Assembly: GCF_008831285.2 (NCBI RefSeq)
Contig: NC_045141.1
Coordinates: 20,332,848-20,396,847, forward strand
Direction: 5' to 3'
DNA: 64,000 nt
From: Nymphaea colorata
Lineage: Eukaryota > Streptophyta > Magnoliopsida > Nymphaeales > Nymphaeaceae
Shown here: positions 3,490-43,127 of the stretch, in pieces
Position numbering within the stretch: position 1 is the stretch's first letter
Layout: the number at the start of each line of letters is the position of its first letter
The notes under the pieces: model-generated
What the model saw: only the letters and a program-made list of their open reading frames with translations
What the model was told of the DNA's origin: nothing
Databases searched by the model: none
Made by a program: the position numbers and the translations under genes

Positions 3490-4950
3490 CGTTTTGATAC
3501 GCGTTCGTTCTCTGTAGACGGATGGAAGCCCGCCTGAGGGGAAGAAGACAGGAAAATCTAAGAAGAATGGTTGCGGTTGTAGACTATTGAAAGGGTATTG
3601 TGAATCTATTATTGCGGTTCATTGTCACCCTGAACTTTTCCGTCATTTATATCCTTCCAGCAAGATCATATAAGGTTTGTGAAATATGCAGCTACTGGTC
3701 AATTTGCGAGGAGGAAGATTGTTTTCTCTAGCACCCTCTTCTTTTTTCGTAGAGAGAGTATATTGGATCCGTAGTTTCTTATTTTACTTCCTATTTTAGA
3801 TGAATGCATCGTTCGGTTTAAGAGAAAGAAGAAAAAATTCTGGCTGTTGATTTGAGCTGTTGCAGCACTTACAGGATCTATTTTATTCGCCGTGGCCGCT
3901 GCACATCTGTAAGTGTTCCTTTTGTGTTCGCTCTCACGATCTAATGATCCGCGAATAGCTAAGTTATTTATCCATGAGATCTATCCTCTTGGCAGACAGA
4001 AGATGTACCATCTCTGCGATCTTTCGTTTTATACTTCCTAATTTCCTTAAGTTTCTGTTGCTAAAACTTCCAGAGGTCTGTTCTCCCTACCAAAGCAAAT
4101 TAAAGAAGCAAAAAGAAGAAAAAATCCGCACATCGGATATCATCTTAGCAGACTAGTTGCTGATCTTAAAGTGATATGCTCAAGAAGAAATACAGGAAAT
4201 TCAAATGGCCGAAATATTATATTCCACTCCCAAAGGAGTACTTTTGAAATGCTAAAGCAAATGATTTGACCTTTTTTGAGTGCTACTATTCTCGTTTGAC
4301 GTGATCCGTGAACCAGGTTGCTTTTCTGAATGCAAGTTGACGTTTGTATTATTTTTTATTAGATTTGATTAGTGGTTGATGAACAATAAATTGAATTGAC
4401 ATGAGCTTCTTAATTTCTTAATGCCGTCCTATACTATGTAGAGTAGTGAATAAGTGGAAGCTGTTTAAGATTGAATTAGTGGAAGGAGATATGATAAATT
4501 GATCTGATTCTCTAATTAAAATATTGGTAAAGCTTTCCCCTGTTCTAGCATCAGTGGATATCTTTTTCAAAATTTAAAAATCTAGGATCACAACAAAAGG
4601 GGTACATGCCTTTCATAAAGGTACAATATTCCTTCATTTGAAGTTTTTCAATGGCATTAGCCATTATGGCATTTATATTCGCTTTTCTAGGTTGGTGTTC
4701 TAACATTCACGCATTTTTCAAGCTCTTCTATGCCCATGTTTTAAAAAATGTGCATTCTTGGTCCTTTCAGCTTCTATACTCTACCTTCTCAAGCTCATGC
4801 CCTGCAAATTCCCACAAAAATTTTTTCAGCTATCAATTCTATGTCCAGCCTCAAGGCGCCGGTTCAAACGGATTTCTTGTCGACTTCTTTAAATGGCATT
4901 GGGATATAGTTAATGAGGACACATGTAATATTTTTAGAGAATTTCATCGA
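3490..4950. other. Intergenic DNA between MIR172 and LINE remnant
   Basis: AT-rich sequence with only short open frames and no recognisable domain. The stretch up to about 3900 may be the 3' part of the miR172 primary transcript, but no processing signal stands out. Confidence 0.4.
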
Positions 4951-29276: not shown

Positions 29277-31826
29277 TTACTGCTGCTGAGGTGAAATGCA
29301 TCCCCTTTCCACAAATTGCACCATAAGCCTCTCTGCTTCACTTGAATTTCCCACTAGAATCAATCTCTCCTTCACTTTTCTACATATTTTTACATCAGGA
29401 ATTAGGTTTCTCTTAAACATTCGGCAAGCAACTTTGTAAGACCATAGTGGGAGCCCTTCATCCAAGAATCTCTTGATTAGCACATGACATGTATCAGCAT
29501 CTAATTTGGAGGCTGTCCTTAAAACTTTATCCAGATGCGTATAAGCCTCCTCAAGTTTTCCAAATTTACAAAGCTTCTCGATTACCTGGTTATAAGCAGT
29601 CCTAAAATGATGCTTCTGCATCATCTTTTCCAACAAGCCCAATAGTTCTTCAACCTTTCCCTTCTCACAATATCTATGAATTACTGTTCTGTAAGTTACA
29701 GCAGAAGGAATCAACCCCTTTTTAAGCATCTGGTTTATTAGTCGAGTTGTTTTGGCTAGCATGCCCTTCCGTCCGAGAGCATCAATCAACGTAGTATATG
29801 TCACCACATCAGGATGCCTATTGTTCAGATACATGTCATCAAATAATGAAAGTGCAGATTCAGTATCATCTTCCTTGCAGAACCCATGAATGAGAGTTGT
29901 GAAGTTCACCACATTAATCTTACATCCCTTTCTCAAGCATTCCTCCATGAATTCTTTTGCATTAGCTGATTTCCCATCTCTACACATATCATAAACCAGT
30001 AAATTGATTTCAACAGCAGTAGGAAAAAACTGTTTCTCTATCATCTTCATAACCAATTCACAAGCCTCAGCAAATTTCCCCTCTCTTCGAAGACCATGAA
30101 TGACAGCACCATATGTGATAGCATTTGGAGTCCACCACCTCTCTTCACTTGCATCAAGCATTACCCTTGCCTCAGTGGACCTCCCCAGCTTACAAAGCCC
30201 ATTAAGCAAAGCAGTATATGACACAGTATTTGGCTTGCATCCATTTTTATGCATCTCCTTGATTATCTTCTTTGCATGGTCTATCTTTCCTACCCTACAG
30301 TACCCATCCACAACAGCACTATAAGTTACGACATCAGGAATGCAACCATCCATGAACATCCTATTAACAACCTCTTTGGCTTCATCCATTTTCCCTTCAC
30401 GGCAGAAAGCATGAACTATTGCACTATATGCGACTTTATCAACTGGAAAGCCCTTACTCTTTGATTCCTGCAGGAATTCAAATCCTTCTTTTGCATGTCC
30501 ATTCTTTGAGAGAACATGTACCAGTGTGGAATATGTAACCTGGTCAGGAATTAAGCTATTCTCTGTCCACATTTTCTCCAACAAGCCTCTTACTTCTCCA
30601 ATCCTTTTATACTTACACAGGAATACCATTATAGTATGGTAGCTAATCTTATCAGGTGAACACCCATTTGCTTGCATTTCTTCAAATAAATCTATTGCAT
30701 CATCAACTCTGTGACGAATACAAAGGCCCTTTATCAAAATATTGTAGCTAACAACGTCAGGAGGTACACCTATCCTCTGCATTCTGTCCAAGAACCGCAT
30801 TGCCTTCTCTAATCGGTTGGCCATGACAAGGATGTGGAACACGGTGTTGCAGATGAACAAGTTTGGTTCACGCCCTGCCCTCTGCATCCAGTTCAGTGTT
30901 CGCAATGCACCTCTTAACTTGTTTGCACGGCTACAAGAGATCATCACGTTTGCAAAATCCTCTGACCTTTGATCAATTCCCCGGCGCTTCATCAATCGAA
31001 GGATCCGACGAGAATCTTGGCAAAGCTTGGTCTTGCTGAGGACCTCAAGCATTGTGTGGTAAACTTTACCCCCATGCCGATAGCGCCATTGTCGATCGGC
31101 CCAATAGAAGAAACTGAGGGCAACATTTTCATTTCTCTGAGCACGGAGAACAGCACAAACTTGTTCTTGTGTCAAGCTTCTGAGCAGGTTCCTCAACTTC
31201 CCTTCCAAGTCAGTATTCCATGAGAAGCGTTGCCCAATTAGTCTACAGATTTCTCTTACTAAAGGGTGCTTAGCTGTATTCTCATCTTCTTCAAATTTCC
31301 GAATTTGCTCCTTGTGTTTAATATTCTCAGAAAATACCAAGTCTCCACATTCAAGGTTTGATTCTGCCTGTAATTCCCTATTTTTGCACTCGCTGTCAAA
31401 CTCTGCAACAATTTGTCCCTCTTGGTCTTCATCATCACATTCTTCTTCTTCTTCTTCTTCTTCTTCTTCTTCTTCTTCTTCTTCTTCTTCTGTTTGATCA
31501 TGTTGTTGATTCTCTCCATCCTTCTCTACAGAACCCAAAATTCTGAATCCCAAATGCCCTGTCTCTTCAACCGCTGCTCTTTTACTGCCATACTCAAAAA
31601 TGTTTAGAACGTCAAAGCCTTCCATGTTTTCTTTGTGTCTCCTAGACTTTACAGACAGTTTCTTCACAAACTGAAACTTTTCATCATCACCATCATTGCA
31701 GTGTTCCGTATCAGCATGGGGGTTGCAAGAATTGAAGGTTGCAGAGTCAAAATTACAGAATAATCTAGAAACTAGAAAACTACATGGGCAGCCATGCAGC
31801 CTCTGAGGAGTTGCTTTCAGCAGCAT
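29277..31826 (-). CDS. P-class pentatricopeptide repeat protein
   Basis: An 849-aa protein encoded in a single exon, typical of plant PPR genes. PPR proteins bind organellar RNA sequence-specifically and act in its stability, splicing or translation. The first in-frame ATG gives a basic, Ser/Cys/Leu-rich N terminus (MLLKATPQRLHGCPCSFLVS) suited to a mitochondrial or plastid presequence. Residues about 40-140 are acidic and include about 18 consecutive glutamates (around 113-130) encoded by a GAA array. From about residue 190 a conserved pre-repeat segment (LRNLLRSLTQEQVCAVLR, then FFYWADRQWRYRH) leads into tandem 35-residue repeats to about residue 830, such as PDVVSYNILIKGLCIRHRVD, PDVVTYSAVVDGYCRVGKID and PNTVSYTALLNGLCKLGRS. 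No E, DYW, SMR or MutS domain follows, so it is pure P class, not an editing factor of the PLS type. The gene is intact; the RNA target cannot be predicted here. Confidence 0.95.
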   Translation of the reverse strand: MLLKATPQRLHGCPCSFLVSRLFCNFDSATFNSCNPHADTEHCNDGDDEKFQFVKKLSVKSRRHKENMEGFDVLNIFEYGSKRAAVEETGHLGFRILGSVEKDGENQQHDQTEEEEEEEEEEEEEEEEECDDEDQEGQIVAEFDSECKNRELQAESNLECGDLVFSENIKHKEQIRKFEEDENTAKHPLVREICRLIGQRFSWNTDLEGKLRNLLRSLTQEQVCAVLRAQRNENVALSFFYWADRQWRYRHGGKVYHTMLEVLSKTKLCQDSRRILRLMKRRGIDQRSEDFANVMISCSRANKLRGALRTLNWMQRAGREPNLFICNTVFHILVMANRLEKAMRFLDRMQRIGVPPDVVSYNILIKGLCIRHRVDDAIDLFEEMQANGCSPDKISYHTIMVFLCKYKRIGEVRGLLEKMWTENSLIPDQVTYSTLVHVLSKNGHAKEGFEFLQESKSKGFPVDKVAYSAIVHAFCREGKMDEAKEVVNRMFMDGCIPDVVTYSAVVDGYCRVGKIDHAKKIIKEMHKNGCKPNTVSYTALLNGLCKLGRSTEARVMLDASEERWWTPNAITYGAVIHGLRREGKFAEACELVMKMIEKQFFPTAVEINLLVYDMCRDGKSANAKEFMEECLRKGCKINVVNFTTLIHGFCKEDDTESALSLFDDMYLNNRHPDVVTYTTLIDALGRKGMLAKTTRLINQMLKKGLIPSAVTYRTVIHRYCEKGKVEELLGLLEKMMQKHHFRTAYNQVIEKLCKFGKLEEAYTHLDKVLRTASKLDADTCHVLIKRFLDEGLPLWSYKVACRMFKRNLIPDVKICRKVKERLILVGNSSEAERLMVQFVERGCISPQQQ
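31440..31491 (-). repeat. In-frame (GAA)n array coding poly-glutamate in the PPR gene
   Basis: About 17 perfect GAA codons on the coding strand. Because the unit is three bases, length changes keep the frame and only lengthen or shorten the acidic linker between presequence and PPR repeats. Confidence 0.95.
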
Positions 31827-34811
31827 GGTTGACCACTAAAAAACAGATGCCCCATAAACTTGTGGATGTTCTTACATAAAAGAAAACAGAACAGAAGTTT
31901 CAAGTTAGCAAGCCCTGCCCACTGTCTTTTCCACCAGAATTGTAAGCTAGACTGGTGAAGAATCATTGTAAATGGTGTGAGTTCTGGAGGTTTTCATATA
32001 CTCGGATGCTGGTGCATGTTTGCACTCAGAGTACTCTGTTCAGAAATATTCTTCTTCGTAGAAGACGTACTGAAAATTAGGCAATGCTTCTGGGATGAAA
32101 AACATAAAGAAGATCATGTTTATTGCATGGACGTTCCAGAAATATTTCAAAGGTACGTCAATGAACAGATGTAAATTGGCGGAGATTGTCAATACAGAAA
32201 GAAATGCAGCTAACTATCCTGTTAAGTGTTAACTGGGTTAGACATGTCCAGAAACAAATTGAACACATATGGGAACGATCTCAGTAAACAGATGCCGTTT
32301 TGAGTTTTTGATGCAGTATCAGCTGAACACTGTTAAAGGTACAACAAAAAACCCACAAATAGTAACCCAAAATCTCAAATGAAGCAAATTTCTGCACTAA
32401 AATGGTAGCAAGAAGCACGAGAAAAACAAATGGAATTTCTCCATTACACATTCATATTGAGCAAGAAATATGCACCTAAAACAGGGAATTCTTCTGAGGG
32501 TAAGTACTATTTAAGAGACTTGGAGTTTGGAGTCTATACTCAAACAACGTTTCTTTGGGGATCATTTACAACCAAGAAACCGAAAAAAAGTTCACATGCA
32601 CGACAGTTTGATTTCAAAAGGGATATTTGAACATTACGAGTGAAGGGTGAAAAAAAAGCATAGGAATACAATGAAGCGTGAAAACAAGGAAGAACCACCT
32701 TCATAATCACGTACGTAAGATCAGCATGGAGGAGAATGCATGCCAATTTTCTTCGAAATTCGCCCAAATTGATGTCTTCAATCCTGCCATAAAGAAGGTC
32801 GTCTTCGTTTGGTAGAAGTTGCAAATGGAGTATACATACGGAAATGGAAACTGCAAGGACGATTCAAAGTGAACAAGAGCAAACTAGTAGATGAGCCGGC
32901 AAATGCAGATTGCCGGATTCTGCTCGAGGATGGTTCCTCCTTGGCCATCCTTGGACGGCCATCCTCGGCTGGAACAATGGAACCCTGGCATCGGAGTTCC
33001 CGGCCCGAAGAGATGAGTATATTCCGAAGAAAAGCACGACCCCACCCCGCCACATCGATACTCCCATAAATAGAGAGAAAATTAGGCGCCAACAAGTTAG
33101 AAAACCCAACTGGCTACCATATAACTAATACACAAAGACGAAAAAGAATGCCTAAATTTCTCCGATACAGAGACAAATGAGAAAGAATAGCCAAGGTATG
33201 TGACGTAGTGGGCTCCCAGAGACTGTCACCGGTGCCTCCAGCCGGAATTGCCGGTCTTGGCTCCGGCGCTGCAGTCCACTGATGAGAGGCAAACCTTTCA
33301 TAGCCGGAGAACTTGACCAACGCCGTAGACGTATGCCCAACGGACCAGCTTCTTCATGCTTCCCTCTTCTACGCGCCGGCGGCTGGCTAAGAGAGGGAGT
33401 CAGAATGCGACGGAAGGCGCCTTACATACAGGGTCGTTTATGGCCCCATTCCAAACCAGTGAGATCCAAATCTGGTGTGGGCGAGAGAGATCACTCCCAT
33501 TAATGTATTGTTCAGTTTGGAATATTTGATTGAACCTTGTCCCACATGGATCAAATAACTGCATGAGGCCGTTTTAGCTGTTACCATCTTCGACTAATTG
33601 GATTTTTTTATCGGACATAAGATTCAAATTCGAATGTCCAAAATGCAGAACCAAAATCAGACTTGCATGTCTGTTAAATTAGATCTTCTCTGGGCTCTCG
33701 AACTTCCTAATGTCATTACCAAGAAAATTTAATACTGAATCCAAATTCCGTCGTTAATCAGAACCGCAGGCGCAGTTTCTTATTGCGACAGACTGAAAGA
33801 ATTTTGCAAGACCGCACTGATCCGATTTCCCTGGCTTAATGTCCTCGGCCTCTTTCACGTGGAGGGAGAGAGAGACGATCGAAATGACTTGCTCCTCGGG
33901 CTTAATGGGTGACTTCAGTAAAGTCTTTGCAAGGTGGACATGAAGATGTGAATTTTAACATTTTTTTATTAGGAAGGATTGAAGATTTGTGACTTGACAT
34001 TAAAATAAAGTAAATTAAGCCAGCATTGAATCAAAATTCAATAAAGAACGTCAAGCCTTGCTACTACAAGAGAAGCCAACCTACCCCTTAACACTTTGTT
34101 TGGATAGAGAGAAAAGGGAGGAAAAAGGAACAGTCAATTTTGTCTTTGGGTTGTTAGTTCTAAAAGAGAGAAAGGAAAGGATTAAATGAAGTGTATTTGA
34201 AAAGAACGGAAAGGAGAGGAAAGAAAGAGGTCGTTCATCTTCAATCCCTCCAGAAGTATCATTTCCTTTTCATTCATCCAAACAAAGCCTAAAGGTTTGC
34301 TGTTGATTATCTTTATCAAAGCCTCTAAGCATATGTCATGCAAGTACATGCTGCTCCATCCTGGTGTCCGAGATTACGAACTTAGTCCTAATCTCCAACT
34401 CTCTGTTCTTTCCACTGGATTGAACAATGATTGACTTTAGTAAGCGAGAGATGCCCAAAGACGGCCTGATGCTATCCCCCTTTCTCCAATCCCCAAGGCC
34501 CAAGATTGCTTTTGAATTTGGATGGATTCCAGTAGACCCATCAGCTTGAGTATTCTGTGTTTTACCGTCTCCAATCCAAAACATGCTGCCTACCCAACCA
34601 GCTATGCTACATCATTTGGAACAGACAAAGATTGTCTTGAATCACGACAGTTTTATTATGTAAAAGTATGTTATCTAAATCTTCAAATTTGGCATTTTTA
34701 TAACTGAGATTTACAAAAGTGAAAGGTAATCTTATTTAAGGAAACCTGCTGACGAAGTTCTCTAACTATTACAGCTCTGTAATAATCTTACTAGCAAACA
34801 ATTTACGTAAC

Positions 34812-35099: not shown

Positions 35100-38000
35100 T
35101 CAACCTAGGCTTTCAATAATTTTAGATACAGCAGAATATGTGCCTGAAATAGAGGAAGCAATCCCTACTGTGATAATGAAGGAGCATAAAGAACCCTGCA
35201 AGAGCGACGAATATATTCAAATCGATTGAGTAATTAAAAAAGAAAGGAAATATTACGGAAGGTGCATAAACAACCAGTACACATGATCGAACACAATGAG
35301 CTATAGCCAACCACCAGAATACACAAAGACACTTCAATGTGCTTTCCATATAGAAAATAAAATTTGTCAATCTGGGTTATGAGCCAAATCTTGACAGCTT
35401 TGACCAGCAATTTCATTTAGGTAACTGCATGACATGTCGGATGTGCATCAATCTGGCTCTGATTTCAAACACATTTATATTTTTAATGGTCCTCATCTAG
35501 TTTAGGTTGCCCTCCTTTTTCATTCCAACAAAAATTCAGGGAGATGATACAGAAATTCTAGTGGCAGCATATGCATCTCCAGAAAACTGCATTTCGCCTA
35601 AACTACTTCTGAAGAATTTGTTATTTTTATCCAGAAGTATAAATGAGTTATATATATATATATACCAATGATCTCAATTAGGACCCAAAAAAAAACATTG
35701 GAAAAGCTTCACCGGCCAGCCATACAAAAGATCAAATACCTGTACAAATGTGATCTTTCCCCGAAGGATGCTGAGGAAGCAAGCACAAGGAAGAATCAAG
35801 GTCTGTCAAAGTTGAATGCACATTTAGTTTCTGTAAGATAAGTAATGGACAAATAAAATAGTGAAAAGCAATGTCACATACAACAAGCATTGTTAGGAGG
35901 GACCCAATCAGTGCCATCACAAGACCTGTTTATAAGATAAATAAAACGTCAGAGCTATCAACTATAGCTTCCATTGGCAACCAAAATTTTAATTGCAAGA
36001 TGACAGCGGTATTGAAAAGGATTCTCTCATAGAATGACAAAAAATATCAATAAAGAACTATCCAACTGCTATTTGTGAAAGAAAAAATAAAAAACGCTGA
36101 ATGCTGATAATTTGAAAAATTCTTCAGTGTACAAACACAGCTATACTGGCACCTTCAAAGTGCTGACTGTCTCTGGAAAATATAGAGTATTATCTTTGCA
36201 AACAGCTATTCGGTTCAGGAATGTACATGATAATGCTCTGAAATAGTCCCACCATATTCACACAGATTTTTTTCACAAAGAACAGGGGGAAATGGTCCAT
36301 GTTATTCCCAAAAATGAGACAATAGGAAGCAAACTTTCTGTCACTATATGCAAGCACAAGAGCTAGTAACAGAAGAGTATATTCTAATGTGGTAACAAGT
36401 TTCTCTAAAGCAGATTAGGAAATCAAACTCACCAAAAAATGGAACACTCAAAGCCACAACCAAGGTGGAGATGACAAGCACTGTTCTGATGACGATTGCA
36501 TAGATGTGAGACTTGAGGTGGGTTGAGGGTATCAACTCTTCTAAACTTAGAGCCACTGGAGACAATGTCAATGCAAATGTACTTCTTGTTAAGGAATGCA
36601 ACCATCAATAAGTGGACAGGTCCAGTAAATTTGAAAGGATGAACTTGATGTATGATACAGTGATGCCAAAGTTGTCAAGAACTATGGCAAAACTAATAGC
36701 AATCATGAATTATGCACAAGAGTTGTGGAATCTATGCAATTCTTGCCCACATCCATGCAAGGATGTGAAAGGCCAGGAGCCCAATCCAAGGTGTACCCAG
36801 AAAAACGAAGTTATATAGGAGCTGAGAAGGAAGAATAAGGTCTTCTTCCTTTTCCACACTCAGCCTAATCTTTGGAATAATATGATTTATCATTTGCCCC
36901 CTCTAATACCCCTTCCAATAGCCACTAGGGGAACAACAATATATCAGCTCTGAGTGTATTTCATGAATTACCAGATAGTAACAGAGTAAGACTATTTCTA
37001 TTGTAGAGAATTACTAAAAGATGAGATGCAATAAGAGAAATCAGTATGTTGTGTGGTAAATATATAAATGTACATATAAAATACTTACATAAATATATAC
37101 ATTCATGCATGGATTCAGACACAGACACACACAGAGAGAAGAAGAAGAAGAAGAAGAAGAAGAAGAAGAAGAAACTAAAATCATTTCTGCATGCACATGC
37201 AGATTTTGGAAAAACAAACTCCATAGTAAATGCTTGGCAAGTCAAAGGGAAATGGCCAAAAAAATGGAAAGAGATAACAAGTTGCAGAAGTGTAATAGTT
37301 AATGAAATATGAATTATATTTTATGAGAAAAGAATAATAAAGGATCGATAGATAGAGAAACATCAATCATCAAATTAAAAGGAACGTAAAAGAAGTCAAT
37401 GAGGCCAGAGATGAACTTCATAAGAGGTTGACGAAGGAATGACACAGAGACTGTCACATGGATACAGATGAATGAGGCAATAACTGGATTTGCTTGGCAG
37501 AATGCAGTCATTTTTCAAAATCAGGATATGGGAACACAACACAATTCTCAATGCAAGCTATAAAATATGATTATTATCAAGTTATTATGATAAAAAATAA
37601 TTAAAAACGAGCTCAAAAGTTAATATAATGTAGTTCAGGACAAATTACAGGAAAAGCCAGGTGAACACAGAATATGAAATCAAGTCTATGGAGACCATCG
37701 AAGAATAGATAAAGCCAAATAACACATTTGACGACAGAAGACATTGGCTTGTCTGTATCAACCAAGTATCTTAGCATGTAGGAGAAATGGAGAATCATGT
37801 CATGTCGGGAGGGGTTACACATGCTAACTCTCAAGCGGAATTCAAAATTGGAAAGCTTTCTTAAATTAAGCATTATGTTATCCAGAATAAACCATATTCT
37901 ACATACACATAAAATGTCTTCAGCAAGTATTAAGCTTAAAACAAAAGATCAAGATAAGTTTGTGGATATTTTGTAAATGGGTTCACCACCTGCAAAAGAA

Positions 38001-41000
38001 CCACAATTAAGTCATCCACTTGCTGAAAAGAATAAATTGTTCCAAGACAATGTTTGCAGAAGCAAGAAAAGGTACTACATGTTCCAGCTGCATACCGTTG
38101 TCCAAACTGCAATCTTTGAGGCAACAAAATTTTGGGGCATGTTCAGTGTGAACTGTGAGGCTGTTGCATCTCCAGACATGGTGTAACCCATGAAAGCAAC
38201 TCCAGCATATAAAATTGTACAAATTACAAAGCTGAAATTACAAAATAAATCTTTTAATGTCTCTTTAATGTCTCAGAAAATAGAGAATGCTCAATAACAG
38301 AAGAGATACCAGATAATGGTTACTGAGGTGGTCAAGAAAGACAAAAAAAAAAAGACACCTTGTCAGAAGAACCGTTGGGTACTGGCTGGGTTTCTTCATT
38401 GAAGAATAAATATTTGGGAAGACAGCATGCCCCGAATAGCAGTATCCAAAAAGTCCAATTGCAACAGGGAAGTTGGTCAGGGAGAGAGCAGTCCCTTTAT
38501 GTTTGAAACCAGCTTGATCGACCAAACCAACCCAAAATAAACAAAGTGCAACCAGTATTGATGCAATAACTCCTCCAGCTGAATATTAGCAAAATCAGAC
38601 AAAAGATTTTGCAAACCAATAGCATGAATGTGTTTGCCAAACAAACTCCCATTGCATTTAATATGTAGTCAGTCCATTCTTAATTAAGTGGAAATCACAG
38701 AAACAAATATCATATTAAGACAGCAAAAAACCAGAGGCACAGCAGGTATCATTTTTCTTTGTGAATTCATGTCCTGATCAACATTATACTACAACCAGAG
38801 AAAAGATAATGCTTGGTAGACAGTAAAGGTACAGAATTGGTTTCCCTTTATTTAAGCAGTGGAGCCCATCTTGCTGGACAAAACAGTGTTTTCATCAGCT
38901 GGCAATGGTGGAGCCACATATGAGCCAGAGGGGCCACAGATATATGACAATGGCTATTTTTCTTCCATTCAGCTAAAATGGTTACATATCTATACACACC
39001 ACACCCCCCCCCCTCCCCCAACCCCCAACCACAAAAAAAAAAAAACCTGTAAATTTATAGTATTACCACTAAGTGACTGGGTTAATGCAATGCATTCCAA
39101 GCCAAAAACAAGTCCTGATAGCCCAAACAAACAAACTCTTCATGACATGAGTTCTTAATGTGTAAACTTAAAGTCGTTGGAAAGAGTAATGAGGGAAAGA
39201 AAATTCTAACAGATACATATGTCTATGTTATGTTGGACTGACGAGGTACAGCACCACACACTGAGTATTCTTCATCAATGCTCTCAGAATAGGCCTGAAT
39301 GAATCGAATCAGTTGAATCGGTGGGAACTGATTCAATTCAGTGGGCAATTTAAGGGTGTCATCTGTCAGCTTTTGACACATTTTAAATATTTTAAGATTT
39401 TTGTACGGTTAATTTTGATATATTTTCTTTGTTTGTTTTGTTCAAAAATTTGTAACATTTTTAGCTGATTCACAACTGAATCAGCTGAATCAGTGAATCA
39501 GTTGATTAACAAAATCAGCGGACCTGCCAATTGATCCAGTAACTAATTTTTGCAATACTGCTCCTCATTGTTACCCCACTATTCTAGACCATCAATAGAA
39601 AGTCTTTTCAGGTATGTCTCATGGGTGTGAGTATGGGCATGGACACAAGTGAGCCTGCGGACATAGGTGTGGACAATTCCAAAAAAAAATGAGTACAGAC
39701 ACAGCTATATTATGTGTGTGTGTGTGTGTGTGGATACAGAAGTATCCACATCTGTGTCCAGCCATATTGACACAAATCTGGCACCCATTTTGTCATGTCC
39801 GTGTGACAAAGATTTTTCAGTCAGTCAATGCTGGTGTGGTGTTTCAAGAATATGTTCACACGCTAAGGGGAAAAATTCGAAACATTCACGAGATGCAAGT
39901 AACTCATTTTTTGCCAAAAATAAAAGTTTGAAATGCAAGGGTGGTATATGCTATAAAAGGAACCCAGAAAGTGGAGGGACTTGTGAAAAGTTTGCAAGGA
40001 TGGGTGCAGCACTTTTGGACGATGGACAAGAATCAAGCATACTTTTGAAACAAGCACGGATAAACACATGCATAATTTGGCCTGTCATCAAAGTGATATA
40101 AGCCTTTCTTCAATAAAAAATGACATCAAGCAAAAATTATACCTGAGATGTAGCTCAGTAAGCTTAGATCGCGAAGCCAAACAGTGGGAAGGACAGCAAG
40201 GCAGGTCATGATAGCGAACAGGTGGTGGGGATCAAGTTCAAAGCCACCTAGACTTAGATGTGCATTGGGAAAGAGTGAAGTCAAGTTATCACTCTCAAGA
40301 ATTATATATTCAACACAACAAGCCTGTTTCAACAAAGCCAACAAAACCAGCATTAAAAGGCAGCGATACAGTGGGAACAAAGAACTAGGTGGCATCATAT
40401 TGGCATGAACAAATCCTTGGCATGTAGACGCAGTTCAGATCATGTGAGAAAATTCCCTCACTGAACTTACATCACACAAACATTTGACTCATGAATGAAA
40501 GTGTGTGAGATCAGATCACAAGCAGGATATCAGAATCAAGAGAAAAGAAAAAGGTATAATTTGAGTGCCGAACAATTTGAATCCTCTTTCTTTACTTTTC
40601 ATGATATGGTAATTCAATATTTCAACCTAATTTGCAAACAGAAGAACTCAGATATGTAAAAATAACTTTAGAAGTCCATAAGACAAGAAATGGGTAGGCA
40701 TATGAAACTGTGAAGAGAGAGTCACACTTACGTACAATTCCGTGTATAAAATTATCTGCATAAAAAAAAAGAGAGAGAGAATCTATTAGCTTACATATCA
40801 ATGACAAGTTGCACAAAACAAAAGTTTGTAGGAAACAAGTAACATATTTTGACATACTGCTTATGTTAGAGAATGCCACAACACCGAAAAAAAACTTGAA
40901 AAAAGAAGAATTAGATGTCCCCATTGCAATGGATGCACTAGCACTAGCAGTACGGCATAAAAGATTCTGTAACATTACAAAATGAGCTGCAGTAGGTCAT

Positions 41001-43127
41001 GCGGGCAAAAATAGCACGTATGACATGGAAGGTGAGATGAATGCTCAGCATTCATGAAAGGAAGACTAACAGTTTGCTTCGAATTTTAGAGTTAAATAAG
41101 AACCAAAAGATTTAAGAGACTTTGAATCTCACCTTTGAACTACTGTCCTACCTTCTGGTACGTATAATCTACAAAAGCAGCATTCCTAGAAAGGAAGAAG
41201 CTAAGCACCAAGGAATCACATTCTTATTTTTGAATACCATATATTAGAGCAATGTACATGGTGAATTTTTTTGGTACAAAATGGTCTTGTACAAGTATTA
41301 GGTCCACTAGGTAAAGACCAACATGAGATGATTTTCTGAAGTAGAATGAGCAAACAGCATGTGTATATGCATGTTCCGTGTACTAGACGGAGGGGAGAGA
41401 CAGCGACAGTATGAAAAAGGTTCCATGACTTGACTTGATGTTTAGCAACTCTAAACTAGTGTCCTTATGTACCAATTAGTGTCATTGGCATCACTGAGTA
41501 TTTCTGTAGCTGTCCATAAACATGCTTCATCTGCCAACACATATTAGAAGTGTTCAATTGTTTAATAGTGTTCTGCACAGTTGTTTGAAATATTCTGCAT
41601 AATAAAGGAAAATGCAATTTCCCTACCAGCAAGACCAGTTGAAGCTGCTGAGATTAATACGCAATCTTAAAATTTGTACTTTTCATAAGAATAATAAGAA
41701 ACTCACGGATATAGCAAGACGACCAAAGGTGCCAAATGCAGCCTGTCCAATATCAGGGTAAGTTTCGAGCCCAGGTTCACTGTCCAAGCAGTGGCGGAGA
41801 AGGATCCCCGTATAATAAGAAAGAATGCCAAAGGTAAGCAACACTAGGAGTCCAAGCCACCCTGCTTCCTTAACTGCATATGGGGTAGAAAGTATTCCTA
41901 CTCCACAGAGAACATTTATCCCTAAACAAGAATAGTAAAGAAAGGCATGTCAGTTTGTATCAGGAGTAACTATTCACTGGCCATCACAACATCTAAAGAA
42001 TAGGTGCATGCACCTCATGCAATGTTAGTTTCACACATTTTGTTGGCACCTCAACAGGAAATATGCATGTGAGGAAACTCACCTTTCCTCATAATCATTT
42101 TTTTTTCCTCCAAAACTCCATTCACTCGTAATTGGATTTCACAAAAAAATTAAGGGCTTTCTAATATCCATATTTTCAAGGACAGAAAAAACAGAAATTT
42201 TGAAAATCAAGTTTTGGCAGTCAAAACATAGAACACTAATTTGAATAATTTGGTTCTTTCACGAATCAGTATAATCCATCAATGACTTTTGGGATTGGTG
42301 AGTGGCTGTGCTTCAAAAGATTACTGAAAAGAGAACTAAAATGAAAAGTACCATTGATCACTGACTGTCCATAAGAGCAATCACGACCAACTGGCATCTC
42401 ATGTGATGTCCATGCTTCATCTTTTTCATGTATTGCCTTCTTTGATGAAAGCCATGTAGATTCTGCAGGTATGGAAGCATGAGAATCCTGCTCTTGCTGC
42501 TGTTCAGACCTTGTTGGTAGTAATGGCTTAACCAGCGAAACAAGTATCTCAGGAGTATGCATTCTTTGAAGTGAACTTGTTAAATAAGAGCTGCTCAAGC
42601 GGGACAAATTTGGAGTGCCCAGAAACCCGATATTTGGGGAAGCTACAGTAGTGTACATATCAATGGATTGCCTGCATACAAACAATACTACTTTCACTTT
42701 ACCAATAGATTTGAATTTAGACAAAACAGATGACAAGCTAACGGTTTAATCTAACTGCAGAAGAGAGAACATCAGTTTAAGCATGTATCCATGAAGCTTC
42801 AGCCTTTTGTCCAAGCCCGTAAAACAGAAGAACCTTTTGGCCCAAGAACAAGAGCTCTAACACCATGATAGTCGACAGTTACAGCCAAAAATATGACATG
42901 CAAAAGAAAATCACTTCACATAATATCTCAAACTACAAAACATTATACCTGTAACTTTGTGGCCATGATGTGGTATACGAATTCGGCCGTGTACGCTGAG
43001 GGCTGTCAGGTGGAGAAGAATCTGAAGAATCCGATTCATCTTCCTCTCTTCTTTGATCCTTGTCAGCTGCACTTTCATCATCCTCGCTCTCAATGTAAAG
43101 CCTCTGCTCGGAACTCAACTTCTTCAT
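35100..43127 (-). CDS. AVT1: AVT1-type vacuolar amino acid transporter
   Basis: A 547-aa amino acid/auxin permease (Aa_trans) of the plant AVT1 clade, homologous to yeast Avt1 and predicted at the tonoplast. Coding exons: 43127-42949, 42671-42352, 41921-41707, 40755-40732, 40323-40143, 38578-38359, 38231-38096, 37989-37970, 36578-36433, 35925-35882, 35802-35740 and 35195-35100; together 1644 bp in one open frame ending TGA. The N-terminal 160 residues are acidic and Ser-rich ([48 protein letters not shown]), as in Arabidopsis AVT1 proteins. The transport domain then starts [20 protein letters not shown], followed by [80 protein letters not shown] and [20 protein letters not shown]; about 11 membrane segments. 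All introns are GT-AG except the one between exons 8 and 9, which reads AT-AC. Exons 4 (24 bp) and 8 (20 bp) are very short. Which AVT1 paralogue (A-J) it matches cannot be settled by eye. Confidence 0.95.
36579..37969 (-). other. U12-type AT-AC intron in AVT1
   Basis: The intron between exons 8 and 9 begins ATATCCACAA and ends GTAC. TTCCTTAAC, a perfect match to the U12 branch-site consensus, sits about 10 nt before the 3' end. Splicing here joins ACA AA to A TTT GCA, giving NPFTKFALTLSP, exactly what the family requires. I found no GT-AG pair that keeps this frame. It interrupts codon 432 in phase 2 and is 1391 bp long. It contains a (GAA)n array at 37137-37173. Confidence 0.92.
37137..37173. 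repeat. (GAA)n microsatellite within the AVT1 AT-AC intron
   Basis: About 12 AGA/GAA units on the + strand (CTT on the transcribed strand). It is intronic and does not touch the splice signals. Confidence 0.9.
39280..39800. repeat. Repeat-derived sequence in AVT1 intron 5
   Basis: The stretch 39290-39560 is built from many GAATCAGTTGAATCAGTG-like words in direct and inverted forms around an AT-rich centre, as in a decayed MITE. Next to it, 39600-39790 is rich in GTGTGGACA-like words plus a short (GT)n run. Open frames here (for example 39667-40101, +) are repeat shadows. The family cannot be assigned by eye. Confidence 0.5.

Follow-up and report, generated by a model that had tools for sequence, protein, structure and literature searches.

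A very probable U12-type AT-AC intron in an AVT1-like transporter gene of Nymphaea colorata, with GT-AG introns at the same codon in paralogues

The window analysed here is a stretch of 64,000 nucleotides from Nymphaea colorata (contig NC_045141.1, positions 20,332,848 to 20,396,847), and it holds an amino acid transporter gene on the minus strand at 35100..43127. With exon borders placed by hand at GT/AG sites, the 12 coding exons join into a frame of 547 residues with no internal stop. The product matches Aa_trans (PF01490) at 226.8 bits, against a curated cut-off of 25.6, and positions 4-408 of 410 are covered; this full-length match is its likeness to the AVT1 clade of the AAAP family. The subfamily name AVT1 is our assumption, taken over from the initial annotation, and amino acid transport at the vacuole, which we take to be a trait of that subfamily, is at most a prediction for this gene. 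Matches to solved structures comprise seven distinct sequences of PAT1, auxin transporters ('five-fold weaker' by bit order) and SLC38A9, with PAT1 and the auxin transporters the nearest. The same strand also carries an open frame of 852 aa at 29277-31835, with a long glutamate run near its start, which reads like a putative pentatricopeptide-repeat protein.

Ten of the 11 introns of the transporter gene are GT-AG, and intron 8 (36579..37969, minus strand; 1391 nt, 66% A+T) alone is AT-AC. On the same strand, exon 7 (38096..38231) is followed by intron 7 (37990..38095, GT-AG, 106 nt) and then by exon 8 (37970..37989, GTGGTGAACCCATTTACAAA), a coding exon of 20 nt that encodes VVNPFT and two bases of a lysine. 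This very short exon thus sits between a GT-AG intron upstream and an AT-AC intron downstream. The junction with exon 9 (36433..36578) splits the codon of K432 as AA|A (phase 2), and removal of the AT-AC intron restores the reading frame. Skipping of exon 8 shifts the frame, and retention of intron 8 leads, after 10 further codons, to an in-frame TAA at 37936..37938.

The 5' splice site of U12-type introns follows the consensus RTATCC, then TT, and their branch site the consensus TTCCTTRAC, close to the 3' end. Read on the minus strand, the ends of intron 8 are ATATCCACAA ... GCATTCCTTAACAAGAAGTAC. The 5' splice site is ATATCC (37964..37969), followed by ACAA instead of TTTT, so that the donor ATATCCAC has AC in place of the usual TT. 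The branch site TTCCTTAAC (36588..36596) has no mismatch, its branch A lies 10 nt from the last base of the intron, and the 3' splice site is TAC (36579..36581). The initial annotation had proposed a U12-type AT-AC intron in a transporter gene at exactly these coordinates, with the branch site at the right distance, and at base level we confirm the donor, the branch site and the terminal AC. It made no mention of the 20-nt exon, of conservation across the family or of the weakness of the donor. A major-type AT-AC intron was rejected, as this needs G at donor +5, a base that marks such introns in, for example, sodium channel genes (PMC2831892), and intron 8 has C there (ATATC).

How much can the motifs carry by themselves? 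Both strands of the window together contain 52 instances of [AG]TATCC and two of TTCCTTRAC. When the window was resampled under a Markov-1 model (60 resamples), unanchored combinations of ATATCC, a perfect branch site and AC arose on average 0.53 times per resample, and 14 times when up to one mismatch was allowed. The window itself contains a second pair with a perfect branch site, formed by an ATATCC at 37529 within intron 8 and the same branch site, and this pair adjoins no exon. As unanchored pairs occur by chance, we rejected the motifs alone as sufficient proof, and it is therefore their anchoring to a codon that carries the claim. At a junction fixed by homology, a donor in any of three registers together with a perfect branch site at 9-20 nt would be expected about 2e-7 times, assuming independence.

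We then searched the genome assembly (407,766,735 bases in 783 contigs) and took 13 regions from AVT1-like matches; five more distant places (C9, C5, C10, C13 and C1) were left out. An intron lies at the same codon as intron 8 in ten of these regions (L044-L052 and L056). All ten have an exon 8 of 20 nt and an intron that ends in AG, and the donor is GTATCC in nine of them and GTATAC in L056. The donor hexamer is followed by TT, giving RTATCCTT, in six of the ten. In eight the branch site is U12-like, with two mismatches or fewer (none in two copies, one in two and two in four); L049 has three mismatches and L050 four. The remaining three regions (L053, L054 and L055) have no intron at this codon and read straight through it as VNPLTKYALIV, INPLTKYALVV and LTPMTKYALEF. 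These three are intron-poor AVT1-like genes, a pattern that would fit loss of the intron along a single branch of the family.

The copies differ in length and in state of preservation. Intron 8 of the window gene is about ten times longer than its counterpart of 95-132 nt in nine of the ten intron-bearing copies. Nine of the paralogous regions (L044-L051 and L056) form an AVT1-like cluster of about 145 kb (G000:C4:17525500-17670000), in which four of the nine read broken in exon 9. Across all ten intron-bearing copies, a check limited to exon 9 found this exon open in six and broken in four (L047, L049, L050 and L056). In L050 (about 4462-4511) the intron has shrunk to 50 nt, the best branch-site match has four mismatches, and exon 9 runs out of frame near its end; this looks like a decaying copy. 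In a FastTree tree of 15 rows, made after removal of L004, L007, L047 and L056, in which few residues were aligned, placement of the window gene was weak (support 0.739). We therefore make no claim as to whether AT-AC or GT-AG is the ancestral subtype.

The genome also encodes parts of the minor spliceosome. One place scored over the Rfam cut-off for U12 snRNA and five did so for U6atac; U4atac gave no match in a genome search whose controls gave no match either. Paired with this genome's U6atac, the window donor forms a duplex of -3.4 kcal/mol, compared with -6.8 for GTATCCTTTT, and all six paralogue donors tried were stronger than the window donor (-6.8 to -8.2 kcal/mol). With this genome's U12, the window branch site gives -7.4 kcal/mol, joint best of the seven stretches tried. 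Intron 8 thus combines a weak donor with a strong branch site. The initial annotation had suggested that the efficiency of minor splicing could regulate this transporter. On that suggestion the signals pull in two directions: the weaker U6atac pairing would favour inefficient splicing, and the perfect branch site and the length of the intron, by analogy with CBP20 (PMC5932401), would favour the opposite. As long U12 introns of CBP20 were spliced better in protoplasts, the long, A+T-rich intron 8 may offset its weak donor.

The 20-nt exon, the introns at the same codon and the U12-like signals in paralogues argue that this is very probably an inherited U12-type intron, with a subtype, AT-AC or GT-AG, that differs between paralogues. 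We hold with high confidence that intron 8 is a U12-dependent AT-AC intron inherited in the AVT1 family, with GT-AG introns bearing U12-type signals at the same codon in paralogues. The U12-type reading of the initial annotation is borne out by the motif anatomy, the open frame, the Pfam score of the junction, the paralogue introns, the intron-free paralogues and the U12 and U6atac genes. From these observations we infer that intron 8 is itself spliced: the minor spliceosome would recognise ATATCC and TTCCTTAAC and join AA|A, restoring NPFTKFALTLSP. The GT-AG introns with U12-type signals at this codon point to a subtype switch between lineages, for which any direction, like any effect on expression, would be conjectural.

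Could the splice, or the gene, instead be decaying? The TT of the donor would have been lost, the intron would mostly be retained, and little full-length protein would be made. Each of the six paralogue donors tried does pair more strongly than this one, retention meets its stop after the 10 further codons, and broken copies of exon 9 exist among the paralogues. Against this, all 12 exons of the window gene are open, the protein spans nearly all of Aa_trans, the branch site is perfect, and long U12 introns were the better spliced ones in CBP20 mini-genes (PMC5932401). We consider decay very unlikely.

Still less probable, in our judgement, is that a canonical GT-AG junction is used rather than the AT-AC one. 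Keeping the other exons fixed, we enumerated every GT/GC-AG pair whose donor lay between 38201 and 37851 and whose exon start lay between 36778 and 36479, and none of the 52 open in-frame models restored NPFTKFAL. Five junction models, AT-AC, AT-AG and three of the 52 canonical ones, were scored with Pfam, and AT-AC scored highest at 77.6 bits (the others gave 73.1 for AT-AG and 66.6, 72.2 and 57.7 for the canonical models). Two GT-AG forms keep the reading frame open. One lengthens exon 8 to a GT at 37942 and joins it at 36581 or 36584, adding 10 or 11 residues; the other lengthens exon 7 to a GT at 38078, joins it at 36581 and skips exon 8, giving 547 aa in which CSWNIT replaces VNPFTK. Both score lower than the AT-AC junction (66.6 bits for 37942/36581 and 72.2 for 38078/36581), neither retains TK[YF]AL, which three paralogues spell without an intron, and a U12-like intron lies at the AA| codon in paralogous copies. 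Scarcely credible, too, is an AT-AG variant, alone or as a minor isoform, with the same donor and an AG three bases upstream (AAGAAG|TAC): it keeps the frame, as worked out by hand, and AT-AG is listed among A-type minor introns (PMC8280824), but it scores 73.1 against 77.6 bits, adds a residue absent from the three intron-free paralogues and places its AG just 7 nt from the branch A.

The initial annotation had also held that only this splice restores the conserved protein. This stands with respect to the canonical models enumerated; it does not extend to the register, as junctions shifted by +1 (TA-CA) or +2 (AT-AT) give residues identical to those of AT-AC. Because the shifted registers encode the same protein, the choice of AT-AC rests on the donor motif: it alone begins with ATATCC. 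In both auxin-transporter (AUX1) alignments shown, residues run ungapped over the intron-8 junction, and the PAT1 alignment has a gap of one residue within NPFTK.

Conserved positions of U12 introns in plants are already known, and so are switches of subtype. Intron 4 of CBP20 is a plant U12-type AT-AC intron, and it resembles intron 8 in its termini, its U12 branch site and its conserved position in a gene family (PMC5932401). Its length range of 76-2733 nt takes in the 1391 nt found here, and a short exon precedes the U12 intron in both (34 bp in the A. thaliana CBP20 mini-gene and 20 nt here; PMC5932401). CBP20 differs in being AT-AC in all ten species studied, whereas the paralogues of the window gene have GT-AG termini (PMC5932401). 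As that study describes, splicing of the CBP20 U12 introns in tobacco protoplasts was about 7 times (1619 nt) and 35 times (2733 nt) more efficient than that of the 134-nt one, although a short moss intron departed from this on the low side; for Arabidopsis, U12DB listed just six U12 introns over 1000 bp (PMC5932401). Both subtypes occur at one position in 36 U12DB clusters according to PMC2831892, which disputes the wide view that switching runs one way. Those clusters are orthologous, whereas here both subtypes are found in paralogues of one plant genome.

Exon 8 also resembles plant microexons (PMC8831610, PMC12409088), which are likewise coding, very short and of a size that stays constant across a gene family; the microexons of PMC8831610 are 15 nt or less, compared with 20 nt here, and the main text of both papers mentions neither U12 nor AT-AC. 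Searching outside the U12 intron catalogues, we found no report that ties a U12 intron to AVT1 or to another plant amino acid transporter, and term look-ups for 'transporter' gave no hit in PMC4892727 or PMC10639083. An Arabidopsis counterpart of intron 8 may already be catalogued.

Subtype may matter for how the window intron is spliced. When CENATAC was depleted in human cells, 92% of A-type minor introns were affected, compared with 24% of the G-type, and where minor sites competed directly, GT-AG was chosen in preference to AT-AC (PMC8280824). One speculative possibility, which we regard as a long shot, is that major intron, 20-nt exon and minor intron form a fixed unit in AVT1 genes that needs joint exon definition by both spliceosomes, and that the AT-AC version, unlike the GT-AG paralogues, would depend on CENATAC, the factor for A-type introns; intron subtype would then allow amino acid transporter paralogues to be controlled separately. 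The intron and its neighbouring exon allow a correct gene model to be drawn where GT-AG-only prediction should fail, because the exon has 20 nt and the next intron is AT-AC. With AT-AC and GT-AG minor introns at one codon of one genome, the AVT1-like genes of N. colorata offer a natural test of whether subtype changes splicing efficiency, and likewise of the way in which the two spliceosomes bridge an exon of 20 nt.
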